Assembly: GCA_003697085.1 (NCBI GenBank)
Contig: RFFU01000076.1
Span: forward strand, 1-59,167
Source of the DNA: Candidatus Hydrogenedentota bacterium
GTDB taxonomy: Bacteria; UBA8481; J006
Length of the DNA: 59,167 bases
Reading direction: 5' to 3'
The stretch's first letter is position 1, and every line of letters begins with the position of its first letter. A program made the position numbers and the translations under genes. Below, in pieces: positions 2,823 to 49,318 of this stretch. The notes beneath the pieces were generated by a model. That model was not told where the DNA came from. It made no database searches and saw nothing but the letters and a program-made list of their open reading frames with translations.

Positions 2823-2837
2823 CGGAGGCGAGTGGAA

Positions 2838-5800
2838 ATGTCTGAAATTATCCGAATGAAACCGAAAGAGGGGGCGCTTCCTGAATTCTTCAAACCGATA
2901 ATAGCGGAGTTTTCCATCGGCGGCGTGGAAGGCGCGAGCCGAGGAGGGGACCTCGCTGATTTTTTGACGGAGATCGAGTTTCATCCCGGCGACAGCCGGC
3001 TCGTCCTTTACCTCGGTCCGACCGGGGCGCGAACGCCGCGTTTGGCGGAGCGGATTCGGGAGGTCGTATCCGAGCGCTTACCGGCGGTGACGGTGGCCGT
3101 AAAGCCGCCGGTTTCGACGGAATCTCTTCCCTCTCCGTCACCCGAACGTCTTTTGAAAGAGTTGAAGGTTCAACTCAATGCCGCGGCGCCATGGCTGGCG
3201 TCCTGCTGGATGCGCGTCGAGTCCTCCCGGATCGTTCTGGCCTGTCCGAATGAGATTGCGCGGGAGGAGGTTGAGCGGGCCGGGGCGCGCCGATGGTTGG
3301 AGGAAACAGCGCGGGAATTAGGAAGCGGATGGGGCGCGGAAATCACCGTGGAACCGCCTCGGGAAACGGCTCCTCCCCGCAAAGCGGTCTTCCGGCCCGT
3401 CCAAAAGAAGAAATCCAATGTCTTGTTGGGACGCGAGTCGGGCGTGACGAGTCCGCCTCTTCCTATCAACCAGATCGCGGGGCCGATGCGGAACGTGGTG
3501 GTGGAGGGGAGGGTCTTCGGAGTCGAGTGCCGAGAGTTGAAACGGCGACGGATACTCTCGCTGGGAATCACGGACTTTACGGATTCGATCCGCGTCAAAC
3601 TTTTTGATCCTCCGGCAACGGCGGCTTCGGTTCGTGAGGGGGAATACCTGCGGATCGCCGGTGCGGTTCAGCCGGATAAGTTCGAACAGAACGAAATCGT
3701 ACTCTCTCCAAGGCACATTCTCCGCGTCACTCGTCCGGAGAGAGAAGACTGCTCGGAACGCAAGCGCGTCGAACTCAATCTTCACACGAAGTGCTCGCGA
3801 CTCAACGGCCTGATCGATTTCTCGAGACTGTTGGAGCGCCTGCGGAGGTGGCGCTGGGATCGCATTGCGATCACGGATGATGCGGTGGTTCAGGCCTTTC
3901 CTCGGGCCTACGTCGCCGCGAAGAAAGCCGGCGTTCGGCTCGCTCTGGGATGCGAACTCAATGTCGTCGATGACCGGAGGGCCGTGGTGGTCAATGTTCC
4001 CCCCCAGAGAAGAGGAGAGTCTCTGCTCGAGGATGCTGTTGTGTTTGATCTCGAAACGACCGGCCTGAGCCCGTTGAGTCATGAAATCATCGAGATTGCG
4101 GCGTACAAGGTTCGCCGAAGTCGAATCGTCGATGAATTTCATTCCTTCGTTCGCCCGCGGGTTTCGCTCGATTCGAACATTCAGAAGATTACAGGCATTA
4201 CGGAATCGATGCTCCGAGAGGCTCCGGGGTGGCGGGAGGTCTTCCCGCGGTTCCAGAACTTCGTCGGCGACGCGCCGCTTGTGGCGCACAACATTTCCTT
4301 CGACGCCGGATTTCTCCGAGACGATTGGGTGCGTTCGGGCCGGAAGATGCCTCCCTTAATCGACACGCTCGAGATTTCGCGAGCGCTCTTTCCGAAATTG
4401 AAGAAGTTTCAGCTCGGGAGCGTCGCAAAGGCGCTCGGGGTCTCTCTCGTCAACGCGCATCGTGCTTCCGACGACGCGCGCGCCCTGGCGAAAATCTTTG
4501 TCGAAATCGTTTTGAAACTCAGGCGCCGCGGCGTCAAAACCCTGGGGGAATTGGAGGCGTGGCGCGGCGAGCGGGAAGCGAGAAAGATTCCGGCGAAGTC
4601 GGTCGTTGCCCTCGTTGCCGACCGGACCGGCCTGAAGAACCTCTACGAGTTGGTGACGGCCGCGCATCTGAACCATCTCTATATCTATCCACGTACGCCT
4701 TGGTCCTTAATCGAACACCATAAGGACGGGTTGATTCTGGGATCGGGTGCGCTGGAGGGACCGGTCATCGATGCGATATTGGCGAACGAATCCGAGGAGG
4801 AGATTCTTTCGATCGCCCGGCGGTTCGATTATATCGAGATCGCACCGCCGGATCTGTATCGACCTCTCTTAGCGGAGGGAACACTTCGTTGCGACGAAGA
4901 TGTGGACGCACTTATCCGGCGGGTCATCGCTATCGCCACGAAAGCGAAAGTCCCCGTCGTCGCCGTCGGCTGTGCTCATCACCTCGATCCGGAGGAGAGA
5001 GAGTATCGAAAGATTCTGCGGGAGCCGTTGGATCGCGACCGCGTCGAGCATCTTCCCTCGATGCATCTCCGCACCACCGACGAGATGCTTGAAGCATTCT
5101 CTTTTCTTGGGGAGGAAGTCGCGCGGCGGCTCGTTCTCGAAAATCCGGATCGCGTCTTCGAGCGGTTGGAGGATGTCGATCCTCTTCCACGAGGCTTTTT
5201 TCCGCCGATTATCGAGGGGGCGGAGAAGGACTTACGCAAGCGAACGATGGAAGCCGCGTTTCGGCTTTACGGACGAGAAAGAGAAGGAAAGGTCATTCTT
5301 CCCGGGAAAATCGAAGCCATCTTGAAGAAGGAACTCGATGCCATCATCGGAAACGGGTTCGCTGTGCTTTATCTCATCGCGATTCAACTTGTCCAAAACA
5401 GCAAGGAGGCCGGTTACGTCGTCGGTTCCCGCGGATCCGTCGGTTCCTCGCTCGTGGCCTTTTTGACCGGCATCACCGAAGTGAATCCCCTTCCCCCGCA
5501 TTATCGCTGTTCCGTCTGTCGAACGACGATCTTCGCGGACGAGGAAGGAGAGGAGAAAGGGAAGATATCCGGCCCCCGCAGGAAGAAGACGGGAAAGGGA
5601 AGAGACCGTCCGGAATGCGGCCCCGATCTTCCTCGGCGGGATTGTTGCGGCCGGGAGATGATCCGAGACGGCTATCGGATTCCTTTCGAGGCTTTTATGG
5701 GATTCGATGGGACAAAGGTTCCCGACATCGACTTGAATTTCGCGGGGGAGTATCAGGCGCGGGCGATGGCGGACATCGAGAAGACATTCGGGAAGGATCA

Positions 5801-7148
5801 CGTCTTTCGAGCCGGAACGATCTCAACATTGAAGGAACGGAACGCGCGCGGTTTTGTCCTCAACTACCTCGAAAAACGCGGGCTCAAACCCCGCCGTGCC
5901 GAGATCGATCGCCTCTCGCTCGGCCTCGTCGAGGTCTCCCGGACCACGGGGCAGCATCCCGGAGGAATGGTCATCATCCCTCGGGATCGTTCCATCACGG
6001 ATTTTATGCCGGTCCAACGCCCCGCCGATTCCGAGACCGCGGAATCCGTCACGACCCATTTCGATTTTCACGCCTACGAGGGAACGATCGTTAAGGTGGA
6101 TGTCCTCGGGCACGATTGTCCCACCGCGATCCGAATGCTGCGGGACATTACGGGGATCGATCCGATGGAGGTCCCGCTCGATGATCCCGCCGTCCTTTCA
6201 CTCTTTTCTTCGCCGGAGGCTTTGGGCTTGACGGAATCCCGGCTCGGCGCGCCCGTCGGAACCTTCGGGATTCCGGAATTCGGAACTCCGTTGTTGCTGC
6301 AGATCCTTCGAGAGACGCGTCCGAGAACGGTCGAGGAATTGATTCGTATCTCCGGGCTCTCCCACGGAGAAGGAGTCTGGAAAGGAAACGCGCAGGATTT
6401 GATCCGCAACGGAGTGGCGAGACTCTCGGAGGTGATTGCGACGCGCGAGGACATCATGAACAAATTGATCGGATACGGAATGGATCCCCGCGAGGCCTTC
6501 GGAATTATGGAGCGGGTCCGCAAAGGGAAGGGGCTGCGGCCGGAGGACGAGATCTCGATGAAGCGATGCAAGGTTCCTTCCTGGGTGATCGAAGCCTGTC
6601 GCAAGATTCAATATATGTTCCCGCGGGCTCATGCCGTCGCCTACGTCCTGATGGCGCTGAGAATCGCCTATTTCAAAGTCCATCATCCGCCGGCCTTCTA
6701 CGCCACGGCGCTGACCTTACGGGCCGCCGATCTTCCCCTGGAACCTGTGCTCGACGGCTTGAAATCCGTCCGAGCCGCTCTGGCGGAGATTCGAAAGAAG
6801 GAACGGGATCGTCTTGCCACGGCTCGCGAACAGGCCCAAGGCGTCGCACTGGATCTGGCGCGGGAGATGCTTCTGCGCGGAATCGAGATGAAGAGTGTCG
6901 ATCTGGAAAAGTCCGATGCCCTGCGTTTCCGGGTCGAGGGAACAACATTGCGCCCTCCGCTCGTTGCGGTGGACGGGCTCGGCGGGAAGATGGCGCGGCG
7001 CATTGCGAAGGAAGTGAAAGAGGGAAATCTGCTGTCGTTGGAGGATCTCGTCTCGCGAACCGGCCTCTCCCGCCCTCTTCTCCAGCGGCTAAAGGCTCTG
7101 GGCGCATGCGGCGCGCTTCCCGAATCGAACCAATTACGCCTCTTCTGA
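2838..7148 (+). CDS. polC: DNA polymerase III alpha subunit, PolC type
   Basis: Replicative DNA polymerase with built-in 3'-5' proofreading, 1436 residues, almost exactly the length of Bacillus PolC. Order of parts: N-terminal domain, OB fold (about 220-310), first PHP half (about 310-395), DEDD exonuclease (about 400-570, VVFDLETTGLSP, HNISFDAGF, HRASDDARAL), second PHP half, then the polymerase core with GSRGSVGSSLVAFLTG, PDIDLNFAGEYQ (catalytic aspartates) and RTTGQHPGGMVIIP. It ends with QLRLF, a beta-clamp-binding motif. The PHP half-site is altered: the usual HLHT is NLHT and ITDHAVVQ is ITDDAVVQ. The Zn-finger insert before PDIDLNF is also irregular, with a basic insertion. Start: ATG 2838, nine nt after GGAGG; GTG 2832 is the alternative. 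PolC is typical of Firmicutes and some other lineages, so its presence in an apparent diderm is notable. Confidence 0.95.
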   Translation: MSEIIRMKPKEGALPEFFKPIIAEFSIGGVEGASRGGDLADFLTEIEFHPGDSRLVLYLGPTGARTPRLAERIREVVSERLPAVTVAVKPPVSTESLPSPSPERLLKELKVQLNAAAPWLASCWMRVESSRIVLACPNEIAREEVERAGARRWLEETARELGSGWGAEITVEPPRETAPPRKAVFRPVQKKKSNVLLGRESGVTSPPLPINQIAGPMRNVVVEGRVFGVECRELKRRRILSLGITDFTDSIRVKLFDPPATAASVREGEYLRIAGAVQPDKFEQNEIVLSPRHILRVTRPEREDCSERKRVELNLHTKCSRLNGLIDFSRLLERLRRWRWDRIAITDDAVVQAFPRAYVAAKKAGVRLALGCELNVVDDRRAVVVNVPPQRRGESLLEDAVVFDLETTGLSPLSHEIIEIAAYKVRRSRIVDEFHSFVRPRVSLDSNIQKITGITESMLREAPGWREVFPRFQNFVGDAPLVAHNISFDAGFLRDDWVRSGRKMPPLIDTLEISRALFPKLKKFQLGSVAKALGVSLVNAHRASDDARALAKIFVEIVLKLRRRGVKTLGELEAWRGEREARKIPAKSVVALVADRTGLKNLYELVTAAHLNHLYIYPRTPWSLIEHHKDGLILGSGALEGPVIDAILANESEEEILSIARRFDYIEIAPPDLYRPLLAEGTLRCDEDVDALIRRVIAIATKAKVPVVAVGCAHHLDPEEREYRKILREPLDRDRVEHLPSMHLRTTDEMLEAFSFLGEEVARRLVLENPDRVFERLEDVDPLPRGFFPPIIEGAEKDLRKRTMEAAFRLYGREREGKVILPGKIEAILKKELDAIIGNGFAVLYLIAIQLVQNSKEAGYVVGSRGSVGSSLVAFLTGITEVNPLPPHYRCSVCRTTIFADEEGEEKGKISGPRRKKTGKGRDRPECGPDLPRRDCCGREMIRDGYRIPFEAFMGFDGTKVPDIDLNFAGEYQARAMADIEKTFGKDHVFRAGTISTLKERNARGFVLNYLEKRGLKPRRAEIDRLSLGLVEVSRTTGQHPGGMVIIPRDRSITDFMPVQRPADSETAESVTTHFDFHAYEGTIVKVDVLGHDCPTAIRMLRDITGIDPMEVPLDDPAVLSLFSSPEALGLTESRLGAPVGTFGIPEFGTPLLLQILRETRPRTVEELIRISGLSHGEGVWKGNAQDLIRNGVARLSEVIATREDIMNKLIGYGMDPREAFGIMERVRKGKGLRPEDEISMKRCKVPSWVIEACRKIQYMFPRAHAVAYVLMALRIAYFKVHHPPAFYATALTLRAADLPLEPVLDGLKSVRAALAEIRKKERDRLATAREQAQGVALDLAREMLLRGIEMKSVDLEKSDALRFRVEGTTLRPPLVAVDGLGGKMARRIAKEVKEGNLLSLEDLVSRTGLSRPLLQRLKALGACGALPESNQLRLF

Positions 7149-11125: not shown

Positions 11126-11757
11126 TCAGGGCAGAGACGCCAGCCGGGTCGATGCGGTCGCAACCAAGACCTTTCGTCCGTTCACCGTTCTGCGCCGAAA
11201 GCCGTCTTTCTTGTTTACGAGTTGAACGGCCGGAACCTTCAGTTTCTTTTGGAAATATAGAAGATTCTCGTCGATATTCTCGTCGCCCTCCCTGGCCTCG
11301 ATAATCAGAAACGGTCTGTTCTTCCGAGCGATCAGGAAATCCACCTCGCGCTTCTCCTTGTCGCGAAGATAATGGAGCGAAAAGTCGCCGACGTCCGAAT
11401 TGTTCCAGAATGTGACGGAGCGAAGCAGTTCCACGGCGACCATATTCTCGAGGCGTGCGGCGCTATCGTCGATCAGAGGATAATTGTAAAGATAGATCTT
11501 CTTCTCTTTCAGAATGGAGCGCGCAACTCTTTTCGACCACGGGGATAACCGAAAGGTCAGGTAGAAGTGATCGAGAAGAGAAAGCCACTCCTTTACGGTG
11601 TCGAAACTTACCTGGAGAACTCCCGCCCCGCCAGGGATTCTCCTCCTCTCCGGGATATGTCCAAGCGACCGCTTCCCAGCACAAGAAAGTGATATTCTCT
11701 TCCAAATTCGTCATAGATGCCCTTGAGATACTCCTTCCAGGGCCGACGCCTATCGGA
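11126..11757 (-). pseudogene. Broken AAA/DUF4143-type ATPase gene
   Basis: Two pieces in different frames. At about 11757-11625 the translation reads WKEYLKGIYDEFGREYHFLV then GSGRLD and GGESLAGR, the sensor region of an AAA_14 ATPase. In another frame, from about 11640 down to 11126, SFDTVKEWLSLLDHFYL, KKIYLYNYPLIDDSAARLEN and EVDFLIARKNRPFLIIEAR give the DUF4143 C-terminal domain. The N-terminal P-loop part is missing, with repeats in its place. About 100 codons between SLAGR and SFDTVKEW are also missing compared with the intact paralogue at 18551-19732. A deletion/frameshift relic of an addiction- or mobile-element-associated ATPase. Confidence 0.85.
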
Positions 11758-12255: not shown

Positions 12256-13407
12256 TTGACGGCTCTGAAGAAGGGAATCCTTGTTGCGGAGATCACGGCG
12301 CTTTTGGGGGGAGGAGCCGTGATTGCGCTCGTTCCGACGTCGTCCGGCCTACCGAAACCGGTCAAGATTTCCGCTGGAGAGAGGAAGGTTTATAAGGCAA
12401 CCGATCTGAAGGCGGAACCGATCGATCTTTTGACGCCTGAGGAGCGAAAGGAACTCGAAAACGAGCTGAAGGTCGATCTGAATACCGCCTCGGTCGAGGA
12501 GCTCCTCTTGATTCCGCGGGTGGGGCCCTCGATGGCGAGTGCGATTGTGAAGTACCGTGAGGAACACGGCCCGTTCAACTCGTATGATGAGGTGGACGAG
12601 ATTCCGCGGGTCGGGAAAAGTATGCTCGAGGTCTTCAAGAAATACACGAAATTGGGAGGCGCCGACCCGAGCAAGGTCAAGAAGAAGAGTGATGTCGTGG
12701 ACATCAACACGGCGACGGAAGAGGATCTCCAGCGTCTTCCGCGGGTGGGGCCGGCGATGGCGAAGGCGATCGTGGAGTACCGCGAGAAACACGGTCCGTT
12801 CACAAGCGTGGAGGATCTGACGAAGGTTCCGAGGATTGGCTCGAAACTTCTGGAGACGATTCGGGAGAAGATCGTCGTGTCAGGAGGAAAGACTGGTACA
12901 ACCGTCGCCTCATTGCAATCGGAGGCGGGGCTGGACTTGAACAAGTCGACCGCCGAGGAGCTGACGAAGATACCCGGAATCGGACCTTCGACGGCGGAGG
13001 CGATCGTGAAGTACCGAGAGGAACACGGGGATTTCAAATCGATCGAGGAATTGGACAACGTACCGCGGATCGGCCCTTCGAAGATCGAAAAAATCCGGCC
13101 GTATCTCCGCGTATCGGCCACGACGGTTCTGACGGGTCGCGGGGAGGCTGTCGCGCGCCGTGAGGAAGGGCGGGGAGCAACGAAAACACAACCCGGCTCC
13201 TCGGCTCCCGGCGCGCCGGTCAATATCAACACCGCTTCGGCCGCGGATCTCGAAAAGATAAAAGGAATCGGCCCCTCCACGGCGAAAGCGATCGTGAAGT
13301 ACCGCGAAGAGAACGGCCCCTTCAGCAGCCTCGAGGAACTCGACAACGTTCCACGCATCGGTCCATCGAAGATCGAAAAAATCCGTCCTTACGTGACCGT
13401 CGAATGA
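12256..13407 (+). CDS. Membrane-anchored ComEA-like protein with four HhH modules
   Basis: 383 residues. Residues 1-30 form a membrane anchor (ILVAEITALLGGGAVIALV). Four ComEA helix-hairpin-helix modules follow, at about 74-134, 150-208, 226-288 and 322-383, each beginning with VDLNTAS/VNINTAS-type motifs and carrying IPRVGPSMASAIVKYREE hairpins. Modules 3 and 4 are nearly identical over IGPSKIEKIRPY and AIVKYREE, in DNA as well as protein, so they arose by recent internal duplication. ComEA proteins bind double-stranded DNA in the periplasm during transformation and normally have one module. The TTG start has AAAGGA about 9 nt upstream; the nearby ATG at 12248 leads only to a stop. It overlaps the MBL gene by 4 nt. 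Confidence 0.88.
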   Translation: MTALKKGILVAEITALLGGGAVIALVPTSSGLPKPVKISAGERKVYKATDLKAEPIDLLTPEERKELENELKVDLNTASVEELLLIPRVGPSMASAIVKYREEHGPFNSYDEVDEIPRVGKSMLEVFKKYTKLGGADPSKVKKKSDVVDINTATEEDLQRLPRVGPAMAKAIVEYREKHGPFTSVEDLTKVPRIGSKLLETIREKIVVSGGKTGTTVASLQSEAGLDLNKSTAEELTKIPGIGPSTAEAIVKYREEHGDFKSIEELDNVPRIGPSKIEKIRPYLRVSATTVLTGRGEAVARREEGRGATKTQPGSSAPGAPVNINTASAADLEKIKGIGPSTAKAIVKYREENGPFSSLEELDNVPRIGPSKIEKIRPYVTVE

Positions 13408-14639
13408 CGTCCTCCTCCCGCCCGACAGATCCTTTCGAAGAGTATCGGTTGTCGCGTACGCCTCCGACCCGTCGCACCGGAATTCTCGAATGGATTCTAA
13501 TTCTGCTTCTTGGGCTTGCCAACGCGGGTGTGTGGATCGTTGCCGGTCCGCGTTTGGCGGCGAGGGAAGGCTCCGTTTCGGGGGTAAAAGCCCGCGGAGT
13601 GATGCCGGACGGCGTCCTGACCGTGGTCCAACTCGATGTCGGGCAGGGAGATGGAACCTTCATTCATACCCCCGGCGGCAAGAACATTCTCATCGACGCC
13701 GGAGAAGGGGAGCATCCGGAAAATCAGTATTCCCGGCAGTATCCTGCGACGAAGGAGGTCGTGATTCCGTTCCTGGCTCTGCACGGAATCGTCGATCTCG
13801 ATCTCGTCATCCTGACGCATCCCGATTCGGATCACGGCGGAGGTATGCCGGACCTCTTCGAATGGGTCCTTTCGAATGGAGGTCATGTGCGGCGGTTCGT
13901 CGATCCGGGAATCACGAAGGCGGCGCGCTTTTATCAAGACATCCTCGAGGCGATCGAGAAACTCGATATTCCCTATTACGCGGTCCTGGATCCTTCGACG
14001 GAAAAACCCGTCGAGTACCCGAAAGGGGTTTTCGAGGGATTTCCCGGAGGGACCTTGATCGGAAACGAGATCGTCCACGATCCGACAATTGCCTTCCAGA
14101 TTCTGGGGCCGCTCGGGCTCATCAACGAAGGGGATGCTGCGAACGATCATTCGATCGTGACGCGCATCCAATGCGGCGATATCTCCTTTCTCTCGGCGGG
14201 CGATGCCGAAGCCGCGGAAGAAGAGATGTTGGTCCGCTTCTGGGGGAAACGGCTCCATTCCACGGTCCACTTCCCTCCGCATCACGGCTCGAAGACCTCC
14301 CATCATCCGTTTTGGATCCGCATGGTGAATCCGGAGATCATAAGCACGTCGAGCCATCCCCCCGTTTTCGGGCATCCGGCTCCGGAAACTCTGGCGGCTT
14401 ACAAGAAGTTCTGTAAACCGCCGCCGCGGCTCTACCTCCGCACCGACCTCAACGGGGATATCTGGTACAGAACGGATGGAAAGAAACTGGCAATCCGCAC
14501 GCAGTTCAAATATCAAGGCGAAGAGAAGCAGTGGGAGCCGGGGAAGAGGGGAGAGTGGAAACTTTACAGGAGGTTTGAGGCCAATGCTCCGACGATCTGG
14601 GAAGACTGTCATCCGGTGCCGGGAACGGATGAACTCTAA
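13404..14639 (+). CDS. Membrane-anchored metallo-beta-lactamase-fold protein, ComEC C-terminal type
   Basis: 411 residues. One N-terminal membrane helix (ILEWILILLLGLANAGVWIV, about 31-50) is followed by the MBL domain. Motifs: VVQLDVGQGDGTFI with ILIDAG, the metal-binding THPDSDHGGG near residue 140, SAGDAEAAEEE near 270 and FPPHHGSKTSHH near 295. This set is typical of the nuclease-like domain at the end of ComEC, but the polytopic ComEC channel is absent. The helix should place the domain outside the inner membrane. ATGA overlap with the ComEA gene before it, and overlap with the ComEA lipoprotein gene after it, make a tight operon. Likely role: degrading or processing extracellular DNA held by the ComEA proteins; this is inferred. 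A C-terminal extension of about 80 residues is unassigned. Confidence 0.85.
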   Translation: MTSSSRPTDPFEEYRLSRTPPTRRTGILEWILILLLGLANAGVWIVAGPRLAAREGSVSGVKARGVMPDGVLTVVQLDVGQGDGTFIHTPGGKNILIDAGEGEHPENQYSRQYPATKEVVIPFLALHGIVDLDLVILTHPDSDHGGGMPDLFEWVLSNGGHVRRFVDPGITKAARFYQDILEAIEKLDIPYYAVLDPSTEKPVEYPKGVFEGFPGGTLIGNEIVHDPTIAFQILGPLGLINEGDAANDHSIVTRIQCGDISFLSAGDAEAAEEEMLVRFWGKRLHSTVHFPPHHGSKTSHHPFWIRMVNPEIISTSSHPPVFGHPAPETLAAYKKFCKPPPRLYLRTDLNGDIWYRTDGKKLAIRTQFKYQGEEKQWEPGKRGEWKLYRRFEANAPTIWEDCHPVPGTDEL

Positions 14640-15414
14640 AAAGACGGACATTCCGGTGTTGTCGAGGTTCGGGGATCATGTGCGGCCGATATGTCTTTTC
14701 GTTTTGGTCGCAGCGATTCTCATGGCGCCTCTGGGATGCGGTGGCGACAGTGGTTCCTTGCCGGGACTGAGCAACCGAGCTTCGAAGGCGGATGCGTCCG
14801 GATTCTCAAAAAAGAAGTCCCGGCGACGGCGCGGGGAGAAGCCAAAGGAGGCTCCGCCGCTCGAGGGACCGGTTCCGATCAACGAGGTGACAGCGAAGGA
14901 ACTGGATCGGTACAAGATTCCTCGTCTGGGAATCGCCACGGCGCGGAAGATCGTGGAGTATCGCGAGGAACACGGTCCGTTCCGGTCCTACGAGGATCTC
15001 GACAGGGCCCCGCGCGTCGGGCCTTCAATGCTGGAAGCCTTCAAGAAGGTAGGAGTCGATTTCGGTGAGGCGGCGGATTCACGGCCGGAAGAGGGAGCGG
15101 CGCCGGAGATTGAAACGAATCGGGAGGAATCAAGCGCGAGCCAAGCGACGGCGGATGCCAAGGCGAAAGCCGAGGTGAAGACCGAGAACCCCGGCGCAGC
15201 GAAAACCGGCTCGGAAGAGGAAAGGGTGAACATCAATACCGCGTCGAAAGAGGAATTGATGACGATAAAAGGGATCGGCCCGTCACTGGCTCAAAAGATA
15301 CTGGATGCTCGGGCGGAGAAGGGAGTGTTCCAGTCGTGGGATGACGTCGACGAGATTCCCGGCGTGGGGGAAAAGAAACTCGAGTCGCTCAAGAAGCAAA
15401 TGACCCTGGAATAA
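14629..15414 (+). CDS. ComEA-like lipoprotein with two HhH modules
   Basis: 261 residues from ATG 14629, which lies inside the end of the MBL gene. The start gives a lipoprotein-type signal (PICLFVLVAAILMAPLGCGG), cleaved before Cys37, although the residue at -3 is a proline rather than the usual Leu. A basic linker (KKKSRRRRGEKPK) leads to a first HhH module (INEVTAKELDRYKIPRLG), then an alanine/glutamate-rich spacer and a canonical second module (VNINTASKEELMTIKGIGPS). It probably sits in the inner leaflet of the outer membrane or the outer face of the inner membrane and binds DNA. The tight gene order with the four-module ComEA and the MBL protein argues for one complex. Confidence 0.85.
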   Translation: MNSKKTDIPVLSRFGDHVRPICLFVLVAAILMAPLGCGGDSGSLPGLSNRASKADASGFSKKKSRRRRGEKPKEAPPLEGPVPINEVTAKELDRYKIPRLGIATARKIVEYREEHGPFRSYEDLDRAPRVGPSMLEAFKKVGVDFGEAADSRPEEGAAPEIETNREESSASQATADAKAKAEVKTENPGAAKTGSEEERVNINTASKEELMTIKGIGPSLAQKILDARAEKGVFQSWDDVDEIPGVGEKKLESLKKQMTLE

Positions 15415-18550: not shown

Positions 18551-19732
18551 TTATGTCTCTCCGATAGGTCCGAGATCGTTCCAAGGAAGAACTTCCGTGC
18601 CGCAGTGCGTGAAACTCATGTCTCCGGCATGTACGAGGAAAGTCCGAACCTCTTCGGCCATGGCGAGATTTTTCATGGCGAGATTTTTCCAAGAGATGAG
18701 GTTTCGAAACATATCAAACGAAACGGTTCGTCCAGCCTTGATCTCCAATGCGTCGAGAGACGTGCCGCGGTCCAGGATGCAGTCAACCTCCCGTCCGGTC
18801 TTGTCCCGCCAGTAGTAGAGGTTGGGGCGCTTTCCGAGATTGAACCTTCGCTTGATAATCTCGGAAACGACCATGTTCTCGAAGAGAGCGCCGCGAAGGG
18901 GATGGGTCTCGACTTGGCGGGCGTTCTCGATTCCCAGAAGCGAGGACGCAAGGCCGGTATCGTAGAAGTAGAGTTTCGGGCTCTTCGTCAATCTCTTCCT
19001 GAAGTTCTTGAAGTACGGCTGGACGAGAAAGACGAGGAAGGCGGTCCTCAGGATACCGAGCCAGGATTTCGCGGTGTTGTGCGTGATCCCGCAGTCGTTC
19101 CCGATGGAGGAGAGATTGACCGTTTGCGCGATCCGCCCCGCGCAGATGCGGGTAAAGAGGCGGAAGGAATCGAGATTCTCGATGTTCTTGATCATGCGAA
19201 CGTCTCTTTCGACATAGGTCTCAACATACCCGGGGTACCATTCCGACGGTTCGATCCGTTGGTCGTAAAGCGGCGGATAGAAGCCTTGGAAGATCACGGA
19301 TTCGGGTGTGGAGGGAAAAAGAGATGAATGCCTCAGTTCGTCCACGGCAAACGGAAGAAGGTTCAGGATCCGGATTCGTCCGGCCAAGGTCTGAGAGATC
19401 GACTCGAGAAGCAGCAGATTATGGGATCCGGTCAGAATAAAAAGTCCATTTTTTCGCGACTCGTCCACGATCGTTTGGATGAAAGAGAGGAGATTCGGAG
19501 CGCGTTGAACCTCATCAAGGATCATTCCGTCCGGATGGCGTGCCAACAGGCCCCGAGGATCCGACAATGCGAAATTCCGAACGTCTGGATCCTCGAGCGA
19601 AACATAGGGTTTGTCCGAAAAGGTATGCTTCACCAAAGTGGTTTTTCCGGCCTGGCGCGGTCCGGTTACAGCCACGACCGGAAACTTTCTGCTCGCCTCT
19701 ACCAGTTTCTCCGACAATATGCGTTTCAGCAT
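18551..19732 (-). CDS. AAA_14/DUF4143 family ATPase
   Basis: 393 residues. P-loop VTGPRQAGKTTLVKHTF near residue 25, Walker B-like GMILDEVQRAPN, sensor region LTGSHNLLLLES with LAGR, then the DUF4143 domain with a winged-helix segment (THNTAKSWLGILRTAFL) and a nuclease-like core: LYYWRDKTGREVDCIL and ALEIKAGR. This family is widespread in accessory regions and archaeal/bacterial genomes; some members carry endonuclease-like domains and function is mostly unknown. A perfect 15-bp tandem duplication (18659-18688) gives LAMKNLAM. ATG 19732 is chosen because the promoter at 19739-19767 lies directly in front of it. A longer in-frame start at 19759 would overlap the promoter. A broken relative lies at 11126-11757. 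Confidence 0.9.
   Translation of the reverse strand: MLKRILSEKLVEASRKFPVVAVTGPRQAGKTTLVKHTFSDKPYVSLEDPDVRNFALSDPRGLLARHPDGMILDEVQRAPNLLSFIQTIVDESRKNGLFILTGSHNLLLLESISQTLAGRIRILNLLPFAVDELRHSSLFPSTPESVIFQGFYPPLYDQRIEPSEWYPGYVETYVERDVRMIKNIENLDSFRLFTRICAGRIAQTVNLSSIGNDCGITHNTAKSWLGILRTAFLVFLVQPYFKNFRKRLTKSPKLYFYDTGLASSLLGIENARQVETHPLRGALFENMVVSEIIKRRFNLGKRPNLYYWRDKTGREVDCILDRGTSLDALEIKAGRTVSFDMFRNLISWKNLAMKNLAMAEEVRTFLVHAGDMSFTHCGTEVLPWNDLGPIGET
18659..18688. repeat. Perfect 15-bp tandem duplication inside the ATPase gene
   Basis: The unit CATGGCGAGATTTTT occurs twice in a row. It is in frame and duplicates five residues (LAMKN type) near the end of the DUF4143 protein, suggesting slippage. Confidence 0.9.
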
Positions 19733-19738
19733 AACCAA

Positions 19739-19767
19739 AGGATACCACAAATAGGACAAATTGTCAA
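19739..19767 (-). promoter_or_regulatory. Promoter of the DUF4143 ATPase, probably leaderless
   Basis: On the minus strand TTGACA (19767-19762), 17-nt spacer, TATCCT (19744-19739). The gene's ATG begins 6 nt after the -10 hexamer, so transcription would start at or within a base or two of the start codon. Confidence 0.7.
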
Positions 19768-34120: not shown

Positions 34121-35341
34121 TCAAGCCTTGACGGCGCTTCCGAGTTCGAAGAGGGGGAGGAAGAGGGCCATTACGATGAATCCAACTGTGATTCCCATAA
34201 AGACGATCAGGGCCGGCTCCATCAGCGATGTCAATCCCTTGACGGCCTCTTCCACGATCATATCGTAATTGTCGGCGATGCGGACAAGCATCCTGTCGAG
34301 TGCGCCGGTCTCCTCCCCGACGGCGATCATATTCGTCACCATGGGCGCGAAGACTCCCATCCTATGGAGAGGTGCGGCCAGCGGTTCTCCTTCCGTGACC
34401 GCCGCGGCGACCTCATCCATCGCGTCCCCGATGACGACGTTTCCCGTCGTGTCTTTCACGATTGCCAGGGCTTGCAGAATCGGGACGCCGGATTGAAGCA
34501 GCGTTCCCAGTGTCCGCGTAAACCGCGCCGTAACCATCTTTCGGGTCAATTCGCCGAAGATGGGGAGTTTCAGAACCATCGTATCCCGCCATCGCTCCCC
34601 CTGCTCCGTTCTAAAGAAGGCCTGTGAACCGAAGTAAAGCCCGGCGATTCCCCCGAAGATCAGCCACCAAAAATCCTTCACGAAATTGGAAATTTCGATG
34701 AAAATGATCGTGGGCAGAGGTAGTGTCGCCCCCATCGACCCGAAGAGTTCCGTAAACTGGGGGATGACGAACGCCATCAGGATCGTAATGACGACAACGG
34801 CTACGACGACCATTATGATGGGATAAATCATGGCGGACTTGACCTTGGCCATCAGGGCGGCGTCCTTTTCGGCGAACCCCGCCAATCGATCGAGCACGAC
34901 TTCGAGGACACCGCCGACTTCTCCGGCCCGTACCATCGAGACGTAAAGTTTGCTGAAGACCTTCGGGTAGTTTCCCAGGGCGTCGGAGAAAGAGGCGCCG
35001 CCTTGTACGGCGTTCTTGATCTCCTCGATGATCCTCCGCAACGCCGGATTCTCGGATTGTTCCGTCAGCACAGCAAGCGCTCGTAACAGCGGCAGGCCGG
35101 CTTCGATCAGCGTCGCCAACTGGCGGGTGAAGGTCATCAAATCGCTGGCCTTGATCTTGCCTTTTCTTCTCCCTCTTCCAAGGAGTTTGGTCAAGGCATT
35201 GACGGTGACCTCGGAGAGTTCGAACGGACGCAGCCCTCGCTCACGCAAAAGCGTTGCAGCGAGTTTCTCGTTCGCCGCCTCGATCTCCCCCGCCACCTCG
35301 GCGTTACTGCCGTCGACCGCTTTGTACTTGAAAAGGGCCAT
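34121..35341 (-). CDS. pilC: Type IV pilus platform protein PilC (GspF family)
   Basis: 406 residues. Inner-membrane platform of the pilus machine. N-terminal MALFKYKAVDGSNAEVAGEI, two GspF repeats (about 60-185, FTRQLATLIEAGLPLLRAL; about 265-385, RFTRTLGTLLQSGVPILQAL) and three membrane helices (IMVVVAVVVITILMAFVIP, WWLIFGGIAGLYF, LIVFMGITVGFIVMALFLPLF). It ends shortly after the last helix as usual. The order pilB-pilT-pilC, with 50 nt before pilC, is the common pilus operon. Confidence 0.94.
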   Translation of the reverse strand: MALFKYKAVDGSNAEVAGEIEAANEKLAATLLRERGLRPFELSEVTVNALTKLLGRGRRKGKIKASDLMTFTRQLATLIEAGLPLLRALAVLTEQSENPALRRIIEEIKNAVQGGASFSDALGNYPKVFSKLYVSMVRAGEVGGVLEVVLDRLAGFAEKDAALMAKVKSAMIYPIIMVVVAVVVITILMAFVIPQFTELFGSMGATLPLPTIIFIEISNFVKDFWWLIFGGIAGLYFGSQAFFRTEQGERWRDTMVLKLPIFGELTRKMVTARFTRTLGTLLQSGVPILQALAIVKDTTGNVVIGDAMDEVAAAVTEGEPLAAPLHRMGVFAPMVTNMIAVGEETGALDRMLVRIADNYDMIVEEAVKGLTSLMEPALIVFMGITVGFIVMALFLPLFELGSAVKA

Positions 35342-35391
35342 CTAAAGCACCTTACCTTCGGAAAGCACGGAGCAATCGGGAGGCACCGGCA

Positions 35392-36516
35392 TCAAGTCCC
35401 GCTTACCAGTTTCTCGAATTCGTCCTTGCGCGCCGCCTTCTGTAATCCGGCTTCGTAGGTGATCAGGCCGCGCTGGTAGAGTTGGAAGAGTCCTTGCTCC
35501 AGCGTCTGCATACCGAGCTTCCCACTGGTCTGGATGGCCGAAACGAGACTCATAATCTTGTTCTCTTTGATCATGGCGCGGACGGCGTCCGTGGCGATCA
35601 TAATCTCGAACGCCGCCACCCGCCCCGTGCCGCGAGCACGCGGGAGAAGCGTCTGGCAGATGACGGCCTGGAGAGAGACGGAAAGTTGGGAGCGGATCAT
35701 CTCCTGTTGATCCGTCGGGAAGGCGTCGATGATGCGGTTGATCGTTCCGGGAGCGGTGTTCGTGTGGAGCGTGGCGAAGACGAGATGACCTGTTTCGGCC
35801 GCCGTGATCGCTGCGCTTATCGTTTCGAGGTCCCGCATTTCTCCGACAAGGATCACGTCGGGATCTTGACGCAAGCCGTGGCGGATGGCCATCGCGAAGG
35901 AGGGAGTGTCCGTTCCCAACTCCCGCTGCGTCACGATGCCCGTCTTGTGCGGATGATAGAACTCAATCGGATCCTCGATCGTAATGATGTGAGCATCCCG
36001 CTCGGTGTTGATGTAGTCGATCATCGAGGCCAAGGTCGTCGATTTACCGCTTCCGGTGGGACCGGTCACGAGGATCAATCCACGAGGAAGATACATCAGT
36101 TCCGTTATCTTGGCATGGGTCAGCCCGAGTTGTTCGAACGTAAGAATCTTGGAAGGAATGAGACGGAGACAAAGTTGAAAGAAACCGCGTTGCTTGAAGG
36201 CGGAAACTCTCCACCGGCAGAGGTCTCCAAACGGATAGGCGAAATCAGCCGCCCCCACCTCGGCGATCCGCTGCATATAGATGTCGGCGGTAATGGCGCG
36301 GACGTAGGCCTCCGTGTCCTTGGGTTCGAGCACGGGGGCATCGACGTCATGAAGCGAGCCGTCGATACGAAAAACCGGAGCGCGATTGACGGAGAGATGA
36401 ACATCCGAGGCGCCGCGCTCGTACGCCATCATCAGAAGTTCATTGATGTCATACCGCTGGGAAGACGGGGCCGCTTCGTACTGCTGATATTCCTGGGAAT
36501 AATCGACTCCAGCCAC
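35392..36516 (-). CDS. pilT: Pilus retraction ATPase PilT
   Basis: 374 residues. GASDVHLSVNRAPVFRIDG in the N-terminal domain, Walker A GPTGSGKST near 155, Asp box/Walker B DPDVILVGEMRDLET near 215 and His box GHLVFATLHTN near 245. The Walker B glutamate is followed by MRD and AIR motifs typical of PilT. Drives retraction of type IV pili, needed for twitching and DNA uptake. Starts 3 nt after the stop of the pilB gene upstream. Confidence 0.93.
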   Translation of the reverse strand: MAGVDYSQEYQQYEAAPSSQRYDINELLMMAYERGASDVHLSVNRAPVFRIDGSLHDVDAPVLEPKDTEAYVRAITADIYMQRIAEVGAADFAYPFGDLCRWRVSAFKQRGFFQLCLRLIPSKILTFEQLGLTHAKITELMYLPRGLILVTGPTGSGKSTTLASMIDYINTERDAHIITIEDPIEFYHPHKTGIVTQRELGTDTPSFAMAIRHGLRQDPDVILVGEMRDLETISAAITAAETGHLVFATLHTNTAPGTINRIIDAFPTDQQEMIRSQLSVSLQAVICQTLLPRARGTGRVAAFEIMIATDAVRAMIKENKIMSLVSAIQTSGKLGMQTLEQGLFQLYQRGLITYEAGLQKAARKDEFEKLVSGT

Positions 36517-36519
36517 CGT

Positions 36520-38262
36520 TTACTCCTTTTCCATCTTTGTCGAAAGTTCGCTCGGCGTGACCCGCATCACCTCGGAGAACGTGGTCATACCCAACTTGAT
36601 CTTCAACAAACCGTACTCGCGCAAAGTGTGCATCCCCTTCCGGCGGGCCAGACGGCGTATTTCGCCGGAGGACGCATTGGCCAGTATAAGATCTTTCATC
36701 TCCTCGTCAACGGTCATCAGTTCGAAAATCGTCGTCCGTCCCGCGTAACCGGTCATATTACAATCGGCGCATCCCTGACCGCGATAGAAGGTGTTTTCTT
36801 CCACGTCCTTCTCCGTCATATTGAACTCCTCCATCACGGCAGGATCCGGTTTTTCCTCGACCTTGCATTTTTCGCAGATGCGCCGGACGAGACGTTGGGC
36901 CATAATCGCGTTGACGGACGAGGCGACGAGAAAAGGATTGATCCCCATATCAATCAAACGGGTGACGGCGCCGGGGGCGTCGTTCGTGTGAAGCGTGGAG
37001 AAGACAAGATGCCCCGTCAAAGCAGCGCGAATCGCGATCTCGGCCGTCTCGAGATCGCGGATTTCCCCCACGAGAATGACATCGGGGGCCTGCCGGAGCA
37101 GGGACCGCAGTCCGTGCGCGAAATCGAGCCCGATGTCGGCGCGGATTTGCACCTGATTGATGCCGTCCAACTGATACTCCACCGGATCTTCGACCGTGAT
37201 CAATTTCCTGTCGGGAGTGTTCAGTTTGTTCAACGCCGCGTAGAGCGTCGTCGTCTTTCCGCTTCCGGTCGGACCCGTGACGAGAATGATGCCGTTCGGC
37301 TTCGCGATCAATTCCTCGAACTTCGCGATCGTCTCCGGCAGGAACCCGACCTGCTCCAGGCCCAACATAACCCCCGATTTGTCCAAAATACGCATCACGA
37401 TCGATTCACCGTAAAGGGAAGGAAGCGTGCTGAAGCGCAGGTCGATGTTCTTTGTCTGTTTTCCGACGCCCGTGGGGACCTTCATCTTGATTCGACCGTC
37501 CTGAGGAATCCTTCGTTCCGAAATGTCGCAATTGGCCATCAATTTCAAGCGGGAGATGATGGCGCCCTGAAGTCGTTTTGGCGGTGTCAAACGGTCGTGC
37601 AACACGCCGTCGATACGGTAGCGGATCACCATCCTTCGTTCCCGACACTCGACGTGAATGTCCGAGGCACGTTCCTTGATCGCCGTGTAGATCACCTGAT
37701 TGACGAGTTTGATGATAGGGGCGTCCTCGGCTCCTAGTTCCTGCCCCTCCTCCGCCTCGAGTTCTTCTCCCAAACCCTCCAGTGTCTCTCCGAGGTCGAT
37801 CGATTCGAGATCCTCCGTCAGTCCAGCGCCGTAATATCGCTCTAACGCGCCCGTGATGTCGTCTGGTGTCGCCAGCATCGCCTCGACATCCAAACCTGTC
37901 ATCGCTCGAAGCTCGTCTACAGCGCGAAGATTGAGGGGGTTGTCGAGAGCCACTCGAAGCACTCTCCCTTCTTTCCAGACAGGAACGACACGTTTCTCCG
38001 TTGCGAACTCATGATCCACCAACGTGATGACATCCGGTGGAATCTCCGCCTCTCCCAACGCGACCGTCTCCATCCCAAAGTAGTAGGCTAGGGCGTTGAG
38101 AATATCGTAATCGTGGCATCCCGTGATCCGCTGAAAGATCTGGCGGAGAGATTCTCCCGTAATGGCGTTCTCGCGCTTCGCCTGGATGATCTGCTCTTCA
38201 TCGACCAGTTGGTAGGTGCGCAAGGCTTCGATGAAGGTTTCCGGCTGTTCGACGTCGATCAT
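36520..38262 (-). CDS. pilB: Pilus assembly ATPase PilB, paralogue 1
   Basis: 580 residues. N-terminal MshEN/GspE-N domain (residues 1-140), Walker A GPTGSGKTT near 333, GERASDIHVECRERR-like N2 strand, Walker B DVILVGEIRD near 395, His box TGHLVFSTLHTNDAPG, and a zinc site CEKCK...CADCN near 475-510. Powers pilus extension from the cytoplasm. Second of two PilB-type genes in tandem; this one lies directly before pilT. A TATAAT sits about 16 nt upstream of the ATG. Confidence 0.93.
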   Translation of the reverse strand: MIDVEQPETFIEALRTYQLVDEEQIIQAKRENAITGESLRQIFQRITGCHDYDILNALAYYFGMETVALGEAEIPPDVITLVDHEFATEKRVVPVWKEGRVLRVALDNPLNLRAVDELRAMTGLDVEAMLATPDDITGALERYYGAGLTEDLESIDLGETLEGLGEELEAEEGQELGAEDAPIIKLVNQVIYTAIKERASDIHVECRERRMVIRYRIDGVLHDRLTPPKRLQGAIISRLKLMANCDISERRIPQDGRIKMKVPTGVGKQTKNIDLRFSTLPSLYGESIVMRILDKSGVMLGLEQVGFLPETIAKFEELIAKPNGIILVTGPTGSGKTTTLYAALNKLNTPDRKLITVEDPVEYQLDGINQVQIRADIGLDFAHGLRSLLRQAPDVILVGEIRDLETAEIAIRAALTGHLVFSTLHTNDAPGAVTRLIDMGINPFLVASSVNAIMAQRLVRRICEKCKVEEKPDPAVMEEFNMTEKDVEENTFYRGQGCADCNMTGYAGRTTIFELMTVDEEMKDLILANASSGEIRRLARRKGMHTLREYGLLKIKLGMTTFSEVMRVTPSELSTKMEKE

Positions 38263-38277
38263 CTTTCCGTGACCAAG

Positions 38278-38283
38278 ATTATA
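38278..38283 (-). promoter_or_regulatory. -10 element (TATAAT) before pilB paralogue 1
   Basis: TATAAT on the minus strand, 15 nt before the ATG, with no good -35. The leader would be under 10 nt but would still hold GGAAAG. Confidence 0.4.
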
Positions 38284-38439
38284 CGATTTTCCGCAAAAAG
38301 AAGAAACGTCCGGATGTCGTTCACCGGTATTGTATTCTCAACTCCTTCAGCCGGTTTCATTCCGATCCTTTTTCTTCTCCCCTCGCATCATCGGTCGTTT
38401 CATCACGAATTTCTTTCCTCTCGCCGGATGGGATTCCCC

Positions 38440-40173
38440 TCACGATTTCTTTGTCTGTAGCGGAACGTCGATCGGCGCGACGCGCAAAACCTCGTCCACG
38501 GTCGTGATTCCGGCCAAGGCCTTCTTCCAGCCGTCCTCGGCCATTGTCTGCATTCCCAAGCGGCGCGCCTCCTGATGAATGATATTTGCCGGACTCCGCT
38601 TCAAAACCAACTCCTGGATCTCCTCCGACATAAGCAGAAGTTCAAAGATCCCGGTACGCCCTTTGAAACCGGTTCCCGCACACTCCTCGCATCCTCTCCC
38701 CTGATAGAAGGTCGCCTTTACGGGATCGAAATCGGGGCCGCCCAGGATGCGAAGTTTCTCCGGCTCGGGGGTTACGATCTCCTTGCACATCGGACAGATT
38801 GTTCTCACCAGACGTTGCCCGCAGATCCCCAGAATCGTCGAGGTCAAAAGGAAGGGCTCGACTCCCATATCGATCAACCGCGTCAGTGTTCCGGCGGCAT
38901 CGTTGGTATGAAGCGTGGTGAGCACAAGGTGGCCGGTCAAAGAGGCCTGGATCGCGATCTGCGCCGTCTCGACATCGCGGATCTCACCGATCAGCACGAT
39001 GTCCGGATCCTGCCGTAGGATCGAACGCAGGGCGGATGCGAATGTCAGACCCACCTTTTCGCGGACCTGGACCTGCGTGATGGAGTCGACCTGATACTCC
39101 ACCGGATCCTCGACCGTGATCAACTTCAACTCCGGATTGTTGATCTTGTCCACGAAGGCATAGAGCGTCGAGGTCTTCCCGCTTCCCGTCGGACCAGTCA
39201 CCACAACGATGCCGTTGGGATTGTCGATGACTTTTTCCGTCTTGATGCGGACGTCCTCCTGAAGCCCGAGTTGATCGAGCGTAATCAAGGCGGCGGAACG
39301 GTCGAGCAGCCGCAGAACGACGGATTCGCCGAAGACGGTCGGAAGCGTCGAGACGCGGAGATCAATCTCCTTCCCCGCGAGGCGAAGTTTGATGCGTCCG
39401 TCTTGAGGCAAACGCGTTTCCGCGATGTTGAGGTCCGCCATAACCTTGATACGGGACGTCACGGCCGATTGAAGTTGCTTCGGCGGAGCGGGCATTTTTT
39501 GGAGAACACCGTCGATCCTCTGGCGTATCACAAACTCGTTCTCGAAGGGCTCCAGATGAACGTCCGAAGCGCGATTCTTGATCGCTTCGAGAATGATCAG
39601 GTTCACGTACTTGACGATCTTGTTGTCCTCCAGATCCTCGGCCGTCGTCTCCGTCAAGTCCGCCTCGTCCTTCACCAACTCCATGTCGTCTTCGGAGATG
39701 TCCTCGAGAAGCGATTGCATCGCCTCGGCTCCACCGAAATACTCGTCCAACGCGCGCTCGATGTCCGCTCTCCGGCTCAGGACGAGTTCGATCTCCTTTC
39801 CCAGAACCATTCTGGCATCGTCAAGAGCCCGGATGTTGTTCGGCTCGCAGGTCGCTATGACAATGCGATCCCCCAAGTCCTTGATCGGAAGAAGAAGATT
39901 GTTTTGCGCCAGACGCGCCGGTAAAAGATGCGGGATGTTCGGATCGATGATCTCGTCCTCGAGATTGATCACCTCGATGTTGAGTTGTTGGGAGAGGGCG
40001 TTGAGAAGATCGTCCTCGGTGATGTACCCCTTCTCGATCGCGATCTCGCCGATGCGCGCCCCCCCGGCCTCCTCAGTCTTCTGGTATTCGAGTATCTCCT
40101 CCAATTGTTCCGGTGTGAGATAGCCCGCCTCGACCAGAAGCTCCCCCAGGCGAAGTCGCTCTATACCGTACAT
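38440..40173 (-). CDS. pilB: Pilus assembly ATPase PilB, paralogue 2
   Basis: 577 residues, same architecture as paralogue 1. The N-terminus (RLRLGELLVEAGYLTPEQLEEILEYQ) is a typical MshEN domain. Walker A GPTGSGKTS near 330, Walker B DIVLIGEIRD, His box TGHLVLTTLHTNDAAG and zinc pair CPMCK...CEEC. The two paralogues share domain order but differ strongly in the N-terminus, so they may serve two pilus or secretion machines, or alternate under different conditions. An untranslated gap of 177 nt separates them. Confidence 0.92.
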   Translation of the reverse strand: MYGIERLRLGELLVEAGYLTPEQLEEILEYQKTEEAGGARIGEIAIEKGYITEDDLLNALSQQLNIEVINLEDEIIDPNIPHLLPARLAQNNLLLPIKDLGDRIVIATCEPNNIRALDDARMVLGKEIELVLSRRADIERALDEYFGGAEAMQSLLEDISEDDMELVKDEADLTETTAEDLEDNKIVKYVNLIILEAIKNRASDVHLEPFENEFVIRQRIDGVLQKMPAPPKQLQSAVTSRIKVMADLNIAETRLPQDGRIKLRLAGKEIDLRVSTLPTVFGESVVLRLLDRSAALITLDQLGLQEDVRIKTEKVIDNPNGIVVVTGPTGSGKTSTLYAFVDKINNPELKLITVEDPVEYQVDSITQVQVREKVGLTFASALRSILRQDPDIVLIGEIRDVETAQIAIQASLTGHLVLTTLHTNDAAGTLTRLIDMGVEPFLLTSTILGICGQRLVRTICPMCKEIVTPEPEKLRILGGPDFDPVKATFYQGRGCEECAGTGFKGRTGIFELLLMSEEIQELVLKRSPANIIHQEARRLGMQTMAEDGWKKALAGITTVDEVLRVAPIDVPLQTKKS

Positions 40174-48602: not shown

Positions 48603-49318
48603 TGCGTAATGTTCACCTCCCGTGCGCGGGGCCGAAGGACCACCACGATCGTCTCCGTGTCCTCGTCGATATTCGTTCCCAGGGTCAGCCTGACCAAGTC
48701 CGGGAGTTTGTTCTTGGCCTGCGCATCCCAGGTGGTGGCCCAGGTGCCCATCGCCGCATCGTAATACTCCCCGTCCAGCCGGCGCATATGGAAGGCAAAC
48801 GGCGTTCCCCCGCTCGATGCCACTGAAAAATCCATGATCGCATCCGTCGTCTTGGACGTGCGCTTCTCGCGTTGGATCTGCAGGGAAGTCCCGTCCTGTT
48901 TCAGCCAATAATACATTCTTTGAATCTCCGAACCGTAGTTTCCTGAAGCGGTTCCCTCATCTACGGAACGCGTGGCCGCGTGGAATTTGATCTCGTCTTC
49001 CTTCGAGTTCGTCAGCGTGGGGGTGTTGTTCAATCCGACAAAGTTGATCTCGTTGGCCGCATCTTCGTCGTAGGGAGGTACGGCCGAGCGAATGTCCGGG
49101 CCGATCGTCGCCAGGATGACACCGAGGTTCTCCTTCAGGCGCGTCTTGTTGAATCCCCTTCTCCACGAATCGGTCAGTCCCGTAAACATTTGGGTGAACG
49201 CAACCAGAATGATCGAGATGCAAACCATCGCGACCAATAATTCAATAAGGCTCAAGCCGCGTTCTTCGTTCCAACGCCGCCGCACCCCATCACGCGCGAA
49301 AGAAAACTTAGACGACAT
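48599..49318 (-). CDS. PilW/GspJ-like minor pilin
   Basis: 239 residues. Prepilin motif ERGLSLIELLVAMVCISIILVAF (cleavage after Gly, before LSLIE); the rest is a strand-rich globular pilin domain. Overlaps the PilX-like gene by 4 nt and overlaps the PilV-like gene by 11 nt. Confidence 0.87.
   Translation of the reverse strand: MSSKFSFARDGVRRRWNEERGLSLIELLVAMVCISIILVAFTQMFTGLTDSWRRGFNKTRLKENLGVILATIGPDIRSAVPPYDEDAANEINFVGLNNTPTLTNSKEDEIKFHAATRSVDEGTASGNYGSEIQRMYYWLKQDGTSLQIQREKRTSKTTDAIMDFSVASSGGTPFAFHMRRLDGEYYDAAMGTWATTWDAQAKNKLPDLVRLTLGTNIDEDTETIVVVLRPRAREVNITQ

Follow-up and report, generated by a model that had tools for sequence, protein, structure and literature searches.

The window analysed here is the whole 59,167-nucleotide stretch of DNA from a Candidatus Hydrogenedentota bacterium, contig C110 of a 3.2-Mb draft genome (95% complete). 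It carries a cassette of three overlapping genes, which encode a membrane-anchored protein with four ComEA-type helix-hairpin-helix (HhH) modules (gene 1), a membrane-anchored metallo-beta-lactamase-fold (MBL) protein of the ComEC type (gene 2), and a lipoprotein-like protein with two further HhH modules (gene 3). The best reading of the cassette is that it supplies the missing nuclease half of a DNA-import machine; with a probability of roughly 0.6, it would be the periplasmic nuclease part, acting in trans, of a variant machine in which the MBL domain of ComEC itself is dead. This reading is carried by the gene structure, the complete set of metal ligands in the window MBL, a clade of ComEC proteins with dead MBL domains, the linkage of similar cassettes to comEC in other genomes, and the operon of a sister genome. 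Every statement of absence made below is limited by the draft state of the assemblies.

The cassette

The three overlapping genes, first recognized in a first-pass annotation made from the sequence alone, were verified as open reading frames (Table 1). The ATG of gene 2 overlaps the TGA of gene 1 (ATGA at 13404), and the start of gene 3, for which the ATG at 14629 is preferred over a start at 14476, lies inside the end of gene 2. Because of these overlaps, translational coupling is suggested. The domain scores of all three genes are far above chance level. Gene 1 has one hydrophobic stretch (residues 8-26), followed by HhH modules from residue 69, and thus has the N-terminal membrane anchor with HhH behind it that is typical of ComEA. 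Its four HHH_3 modules were found at E 2.9e-98 in a profile search, and its score of 277 bits against TIGR01259 (comEA) exceeds the cut-off of 152, with the repeats adding up in the score; the anchored four-module protein of the first-pass annotation was thus borne out. Gene 3 carries two HHH_3 modules (7.2e-36), as had been proposed, and scores 107 bits against TIGR01259, under the same cut-off. Its N-terminus is a hydrophobic stretch ending in LMAPLGC, which resembles a signal sequence with lipobox, the P at position -3 being non-canonical; the product is probably lipid-anchored, and the earlier label "lipoprotein" is better given as lipoprotein-like. By these profile matches, gene 1 is classed as ComEA-like, gene 2 as a ComEC-type MBL that is no ComEC, and gene 3 as a lipoprotein-like HhH protein below the comEA threshold. 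By analogy with ComEA, both HhH proteins presumably bind DNA.

Gene 2 encodes a single transmembrane (TM) helix with an MBL domain behind it (Lactamase_B, 3.6e-9). It has no match to the competence channel domain PF03772, and since the channel is absent, its score against TIGR00361 (ComEC_Rec2), 103.6 bits from the MBL part alone, stays under the 190-bit cut-off; an anchored ComEC-type MBL lacking the channel is what had been described at the outset. Every metal ligand is kept (H139, D141, D143, H144, D267, H293 and H324), together with S296 in the H293-H294-G-S296 motif, and these positions align with the ligand and substrate residues mutated in the ComEC domain of Moorella glycerini (PMC12455585). 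The metal-free AlphaFold2 model, with pLDDT mostly >85 over residues 69-368 and the TM helix at residues 27-54, superimposes on the crystal structure of the M. glycerini ComEC MBL (9ic4) with Z 32.8 and rmsd 2.0 over 259 residues, and the runner-up fold match is the phosphorylcholine esterase Pce with Z 27.2. The first-pass annotation had called for a model of the metal site; all ligands are present, and by fold and metal ligands gene 2 qualifies as a ComEC-type MBL nuclease domain. By analogy with ComEC, the window MBL would be an active nuclease, held by one inner-membrane helix with its domain in the periplasm.

Table 1. Positions of the cassette genes, their modules and motifs, and the pilus gene cluster in the window
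Feature	Position	Strand	Remark
Gene 1, membrane-anchored protein with four ComEA-type HhH modules, 383 aa	12256..13407	+	TTG start
HhH module 1 (gene 1)	12460..12642	+	HHH_3, 68.0 bits
HhH module 2 (gene 1)	12685..12873	+	HHH_3, 90.3 bits
HhH module 3 (gene 1)	12919..13110	+	HHH_3, 85.5 bits
HhH module 4 (gene 1)	13216..13398	+	HHH_3, 92.2 bits
Gene 2, membrane-anchored ComEC-type MBL, 411 aa	13404..14639	+	ATGA overlap with gene 1
N-terminal tail motif DPFEEYR (gene 2), before TM helix	13428..13448	+	common to anchored MBLs of other phyla
MBL motif II HPDSDH (H139, D141, D143, H144)	13818..13835	+	
Metal ligand D267 (gene 2)	14202..14204	+	
HHGS (H293-S296)	14280..14291	+	counterpart of M. 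glycerini H725-S728 (PMC12455585)
H324 of GHP motif (gene 2)	14373..14375	+	
Gene 3, lipoprotein-like protein with two HhH modules, 261 aa	14629..15414	+	overlaps end of gene 2
HhH module 5 (gene 3)	14869..15045	+	HHH_3, 55.2 bits
HhH module 6 (gene 3)	15217..15402	+	HHH_3, 72.5 bits
Type IV pilus genes: T2SSF/PilC, PilT-like, two PilB/MshEN ATPases	34121..40173	-	possible DNA-uptake pilus

A clade of ComEC proteins with dead MBL domains

The cassette had been described as separate from a canonical ComEC. A full-length ComEC is indeed encoded elsewhere in the genome, beside ndk on contig C45, with its DUF4131 (OB) match and its channel retained, but it is not canonical, because the metal ligands are gone from its own MBL domain: NTSPED stands in place of HPDSDH (N, S, E and D at the ligand positions of motif II), AHGS in place of HHGS, and the final histidine is missing. 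The nuclease domain of this ComEC is predicted to be inactivated. By the tree and by the loss of its ligands it belongs to a group of 20 long ComECs with dead MBL domains, which form one clade with zero intact members (UFBoot/SH-aLRT 100/100 in a channel-region tree whose bootstrap had not fully settled). Of 386 genomes searched with a profile of this clade, 18 gave a match below E 1e-145, and the closest of the ordinary ComECs followed at about 1e-60 to 1e-82; an open reading frame fragment in G270 (4e-74) makes a probable nineteenth genome by the dead motif only. The members fall into 12 families and at least three phyla, as the window's phylum, that of G019 and the Lindowbacteria group are mutually distinct, the first two being represented by 2 genomes each in the set searched.

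The metal site is intact in none of the 22 clade members checked. H139 was found in 1, D143 in 2, H144 in 6, H293 in 1 and H324 in 0 of them, and D267 in 17. These comEC genes do not look like decaying ones, because the channel is more conserved than the N-terminal or MBL parts and because the dead domain keeps its fold: that of the Lindowbacteria ComEC is modelled with the fold of the ComEC nuclease domain (pLDDT 86, Z 31.8 to 9ic4). DprA was present in 16/16 clade genomes tested; it is near-universal, being found in most control genomes as well.

Linkage to comEC and the operon of the sister genome

The three-gene order recurs in other genomes, directly behind comEC. The arrangement comEC, anchored HhH protein, anchored MBL, lipoprotein-like HhH protein is shared by G019 and G060 (one family) as well as by G030 and the Lindowbacteria genome G312 (another single family), and G232 has comEC-HhH-MBL-HhH-HhH. 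Two-gene versions occur as comEC-HhH-MBL in G177, G078 and G120 and as HhH-MBL directly before comEC in G067. A stand-alone MBL lies ≤3 kb from comEC in 10/20 clade genes versus 0/21 ordinary ones (p 1.6e-4), and an HhH gene near comEC in 12/20 versus 3/21 (p 0.004); both contrasts are indicative, because the ordinary loci came mostly from a scan favouring intact MBLs and relatives were counted singly.

The strongest single evidence tying the cassette to ComEC is the gene order in the sister genome G001, which belongs to the same order as the window genome. Its comEC is 54% identical to that on C45 over 998 aa, with matching flanking genes, and is followed by a gene with three HhH modules that is 48% identical to gene 1 over 282 aa. 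After the same ATGA overlap a further gene opens with MSQADSSYIDAFERYRQSR, upon which the contig (C154) ends. The window MBL opens with MTSSSRPTDPFEEYRLSRT, and the same tail motif is carried by the G001 start, with similar N-terminal tails in the anchored MBLs of G030, G312, G177, G019 and G060. Because the G001 cassette stands directly behind comEC, the window cassette has most likely been split off from the end of a comEC operon. An MBL on contig C163 of G001 had been considered as the missing cassette MBL and was set aside, since it groups with an MBL on contig C46 of the window genome and the real start lies at the end of C154.

Co-occurrence was assessed in 116 genomes sampled across families. 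Of those with a dead fused ComEC, 7/9 carry an intact stand-alone ComEC-type MBL, versus 8/49 of those with an intact ComEC (p 6e-4). The former share becomes 7/11 (p 0.003) if two more genomes, which have weak MBL remnants but lack a stand-alone MBL, are added to the dead group. The p values err on the optimistic side, because the dead group was partly noticed via cassette genomes and the clade shares one inactivation. Genomes with a channel-only ComEC (7/51) are no richer in such MBLs than those with an intact ComEC.

Proposed mechanism

In the architecture we propose, ComEC would provide the OB fold and the channel, its C-terminal MBL serving as a catalytically dead scaffold, while the nuclease would be the separate MBL, tethered by one inner-membrane helix and facing the periplasm. 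Incoming duplex DNA would be gripped and concentrated at this MBL by the HhH proteins, of which one has an inner-membrane anchor and the other probably a lipid anchor. We hypothesize that the MBL acts in trans on DNA held by ComEC, where it might degrade the non-transported strand or nick the DNA to free an end, and ComEC would move the other strand inward. The first-pass annotation had seen a dedicated DNA-holding and DNA-cutting unit outside the inner membrane. An extracytoplasmic, DNA-holding and, with its metal site intact, probably DNA-cutting unit remains the description of choice; its independence from ComEC does not, because elsewhere the cassette adjoins comEC genes whose MBL domains are dead.

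The ComEC MBL is a Mn-dependent nuclease, and transformation is reduced or abolished when its ligands are lost (PMC8579336, PMC12455585); joining the ComEA HhH to the ComEC MBL raises nuclease activity (PMC12455585). Silale et al. (2021) noted that almost half of ComEC proteins lack the nuclease domain, and removal of the non-transforming strand was left as an open question for these (PMC8579336). We consider it slightly better than an even bet that a second DNA-import architecture exists in several candidate phyla, in which an ancient clade of long ComECs, its nuclease site lost and the domain retained as a scaffold, operates together with a trans-acting anchored MBL encoded between HhH proteins, joined in some genomes by an HhH-bearing secretin. 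If true, strand removal in one widespread group would have a concrete explanation that can be put to the test: the nuclease function was transferred to a protein of its own, encoded together with DNA-gripping modules. Separable parts would then be available for the study of strand choice in DNA uptake, and likely natural competence could be recognized from the genomes of uncultured phyla.

Several observations weigh against the cassette as nuclease partner of a dead-MBL ComEC. In the assembly of the window genome, the cassette is on one contig and comEC on another, and in the MBL tree the window protein has a long branch. The partners are uncertain, because the window genome has a second intact-ligand stand-alone ComEC-type MBL (L033:7669-8709 (+), contig C46) and a second, channel-only ComEC-family protein of 587 aa (L035:7221-8984 (+), contig C96). 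Loss of the metal residues in homologues, named from the start as a refuting outcome, was seen in part: in G019 and G060 the comEC-adjacent MBL is dead as well, and in G067 it has lost motif II by deletion, no other intact HhH-linked MBL being found in that genome, whereas the ligands are intact in the window, G030, G312, G177, G078, G120 and G232. In G095 the ComEC near an HhH-MBL pair is intact; such a pair can thus have an active ComEC as its neighbour. The co-occurrence counts, finally, are not independent, because the dead clade stands for one evolutionary event. Two broader statements were given up: that every clade genome has an intact partner MBL, in view of the deletion in G067, and that all cassette MBLs form a single well-supported family, in view of weak support (SH-aLRT 82) and the long branch. 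As to the additional genes, a second ComEC-family channel is likewise present in each of G001, G019, G060 and G030, and the C46 MBL has an ortholog in G001 (L043) and an HhH protein gene ≈ 1.6 kb upstream, behind a His_biosynth gene.

Alternative readings

That the cassette grips and digests periplasmic DNA for nucleotides or phosphate, with no obligatory ComEC partnership, would agree with extracytoplasmic anchoring and a nuclease fold, with the lack of linkage to comEC in the window genome and with the pair beside an intact ComEC in G095; the comEC linkage seen in several families as well as in the sister genome, and the association with dead-MBL ComECs, make this reading unlikely. Conservation of the gene order in G019, G060 and G067 despite a dead comEC-linked MBL can be understood if the cassette binds DNA and guides it to ComEC, with MBL cleavage secondary or lost in places and another nuclease removing the strand. 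Yet all ligands are kept over large divergence in the intact cassettes listed above, and G019 and G060 retain further intact HhH-linked MBLs (L040, L041, L098), which leaves a guiding role without cleavage quite improbable.

Two further readings concern other targets. Defence against extracellular DNA had been put forward at the outset; the unit would then destroy extracellular or phage DNA in the periplasm. Several antiphage systems contain MBL nucleases like that of ComEC as accessory components (PMC12799240), among them trypsin-MBL modules with a separate MBL that resembles the ComEC nuclease, and PADLOC gave weak matches. The cassette differs from those modules in its membrane anchors, its neighbours and its lack of a protease partner: no trypsin-like protease gene or other defence partner adjoins the MBL, which is flanked by HhH genes and is comEC-linked elsewhere, and the PADLOC hits are weak MBL matches only. 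A defensive role is unsupported and very improbable. Little credence is likewise given to a non-DNA substrate such as a cell-envelope phosphodiester. The Pce fold match and a Wzz/tyrosine-kinase-like gene downstream of the cassette point that way, but the ComEC nuclease domain is the top match in both sequence and fold, and the MBL is encoded between DNA-binding modules in several phyla.

Relation to known systems

The cassette is most suitably classified as part of a variant ComEA/ComEC DNA-uptake machine whose nuclease would act in trans. Gene 2 shares fold, ligands, HHGS motif and extracytoplasmic placement with the C-terminal MBL of ComEC/Rec2 (PMC8579336, PMC12455585); it differs as a separate single-pass protein with neither channel nor OB fold, co-encoded with HhH proteins and, if active, working in trans. 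With the DNA receptor ComEA, the cassette has in common the HhH modules, the N-terminal membrane anchor and a neighbourhood of DNA-uptake genes, but ComEA typically has one module, whereas here four and two flank an MBL gene. The same logic is seen in S. pneumoniae, in which a ComEC MBL without ligands is accompanied by the separate membrane nuclease EndA (PMC8579336, PMC12455585). EndA belongs to another nuclease family, while the partner proposed here is an MBL of ComEC's own kind, encoded with HhH proteins.

An MBL apart from the channel is also seen in split ComECs of the CPR (Candidate Phyla Radiation; L153, L155, L183, L184) and of Chthonomonadales (L154). In these, no trace of an MBL is left on the channel protein and no HhH genes intervene, whereas the ComEC discussed here keeps its dead MBL. 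L232 (G207) is another simple split ComEC, with channel and MBL as two neighbouring genes and no HhH gene between. Single-chain proteins in Planococcaceae (L109), Halolactibacillus (L142), Myxococcota (L174) and G019 (L041) likewise unite an MBL with ComEA-type HhH modules, but in one polypeptide and not in a comEC-linked cassette; L355 (G242) is a further single chain of a ComEC-type MBL with one or more ComEA HhH modules. No description of the cassette arrangement or of HhH-bearing secretins was found in the open literature, an absence that is no proof of novelty.

Genomic context

The type IV pilus that had been noticed in the same window was confirmed as a gene cluster (Table 1), and we infer an association of these genes with the cassette. 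On contig C88 of the window genome (L060:7886-16282 (-)) a secretin of ≈ 2800 aa is encoded, with four Secretin_N stretches, a Secretin domain and four C-terminal ComEA HhH modules; G019 has a 799-aa secretin with an HhH match (L042:1-2397) just upstream of its ndk-comEC-cassette locus. Such secretins might be outer-membrane pores for DNA uptake that carry DNA grips of their own.

Upstream of the cassette, a short open reading frame (11126-11443 (-)) appears by eye to be a C-terminal ATPase remnant resembling the full-length gene at 18551-19759 (-), and may mark a past rearrangement near the cassette. Elsewhere in the window, a PolC-like DNA polymerase III alpha (2832-7145 (+)) combines PHP and an RNase_T exonuclease domain in a single chain, and an 877-aa protein (46278-48908 (-)) carries a Lamin Tail Domain.

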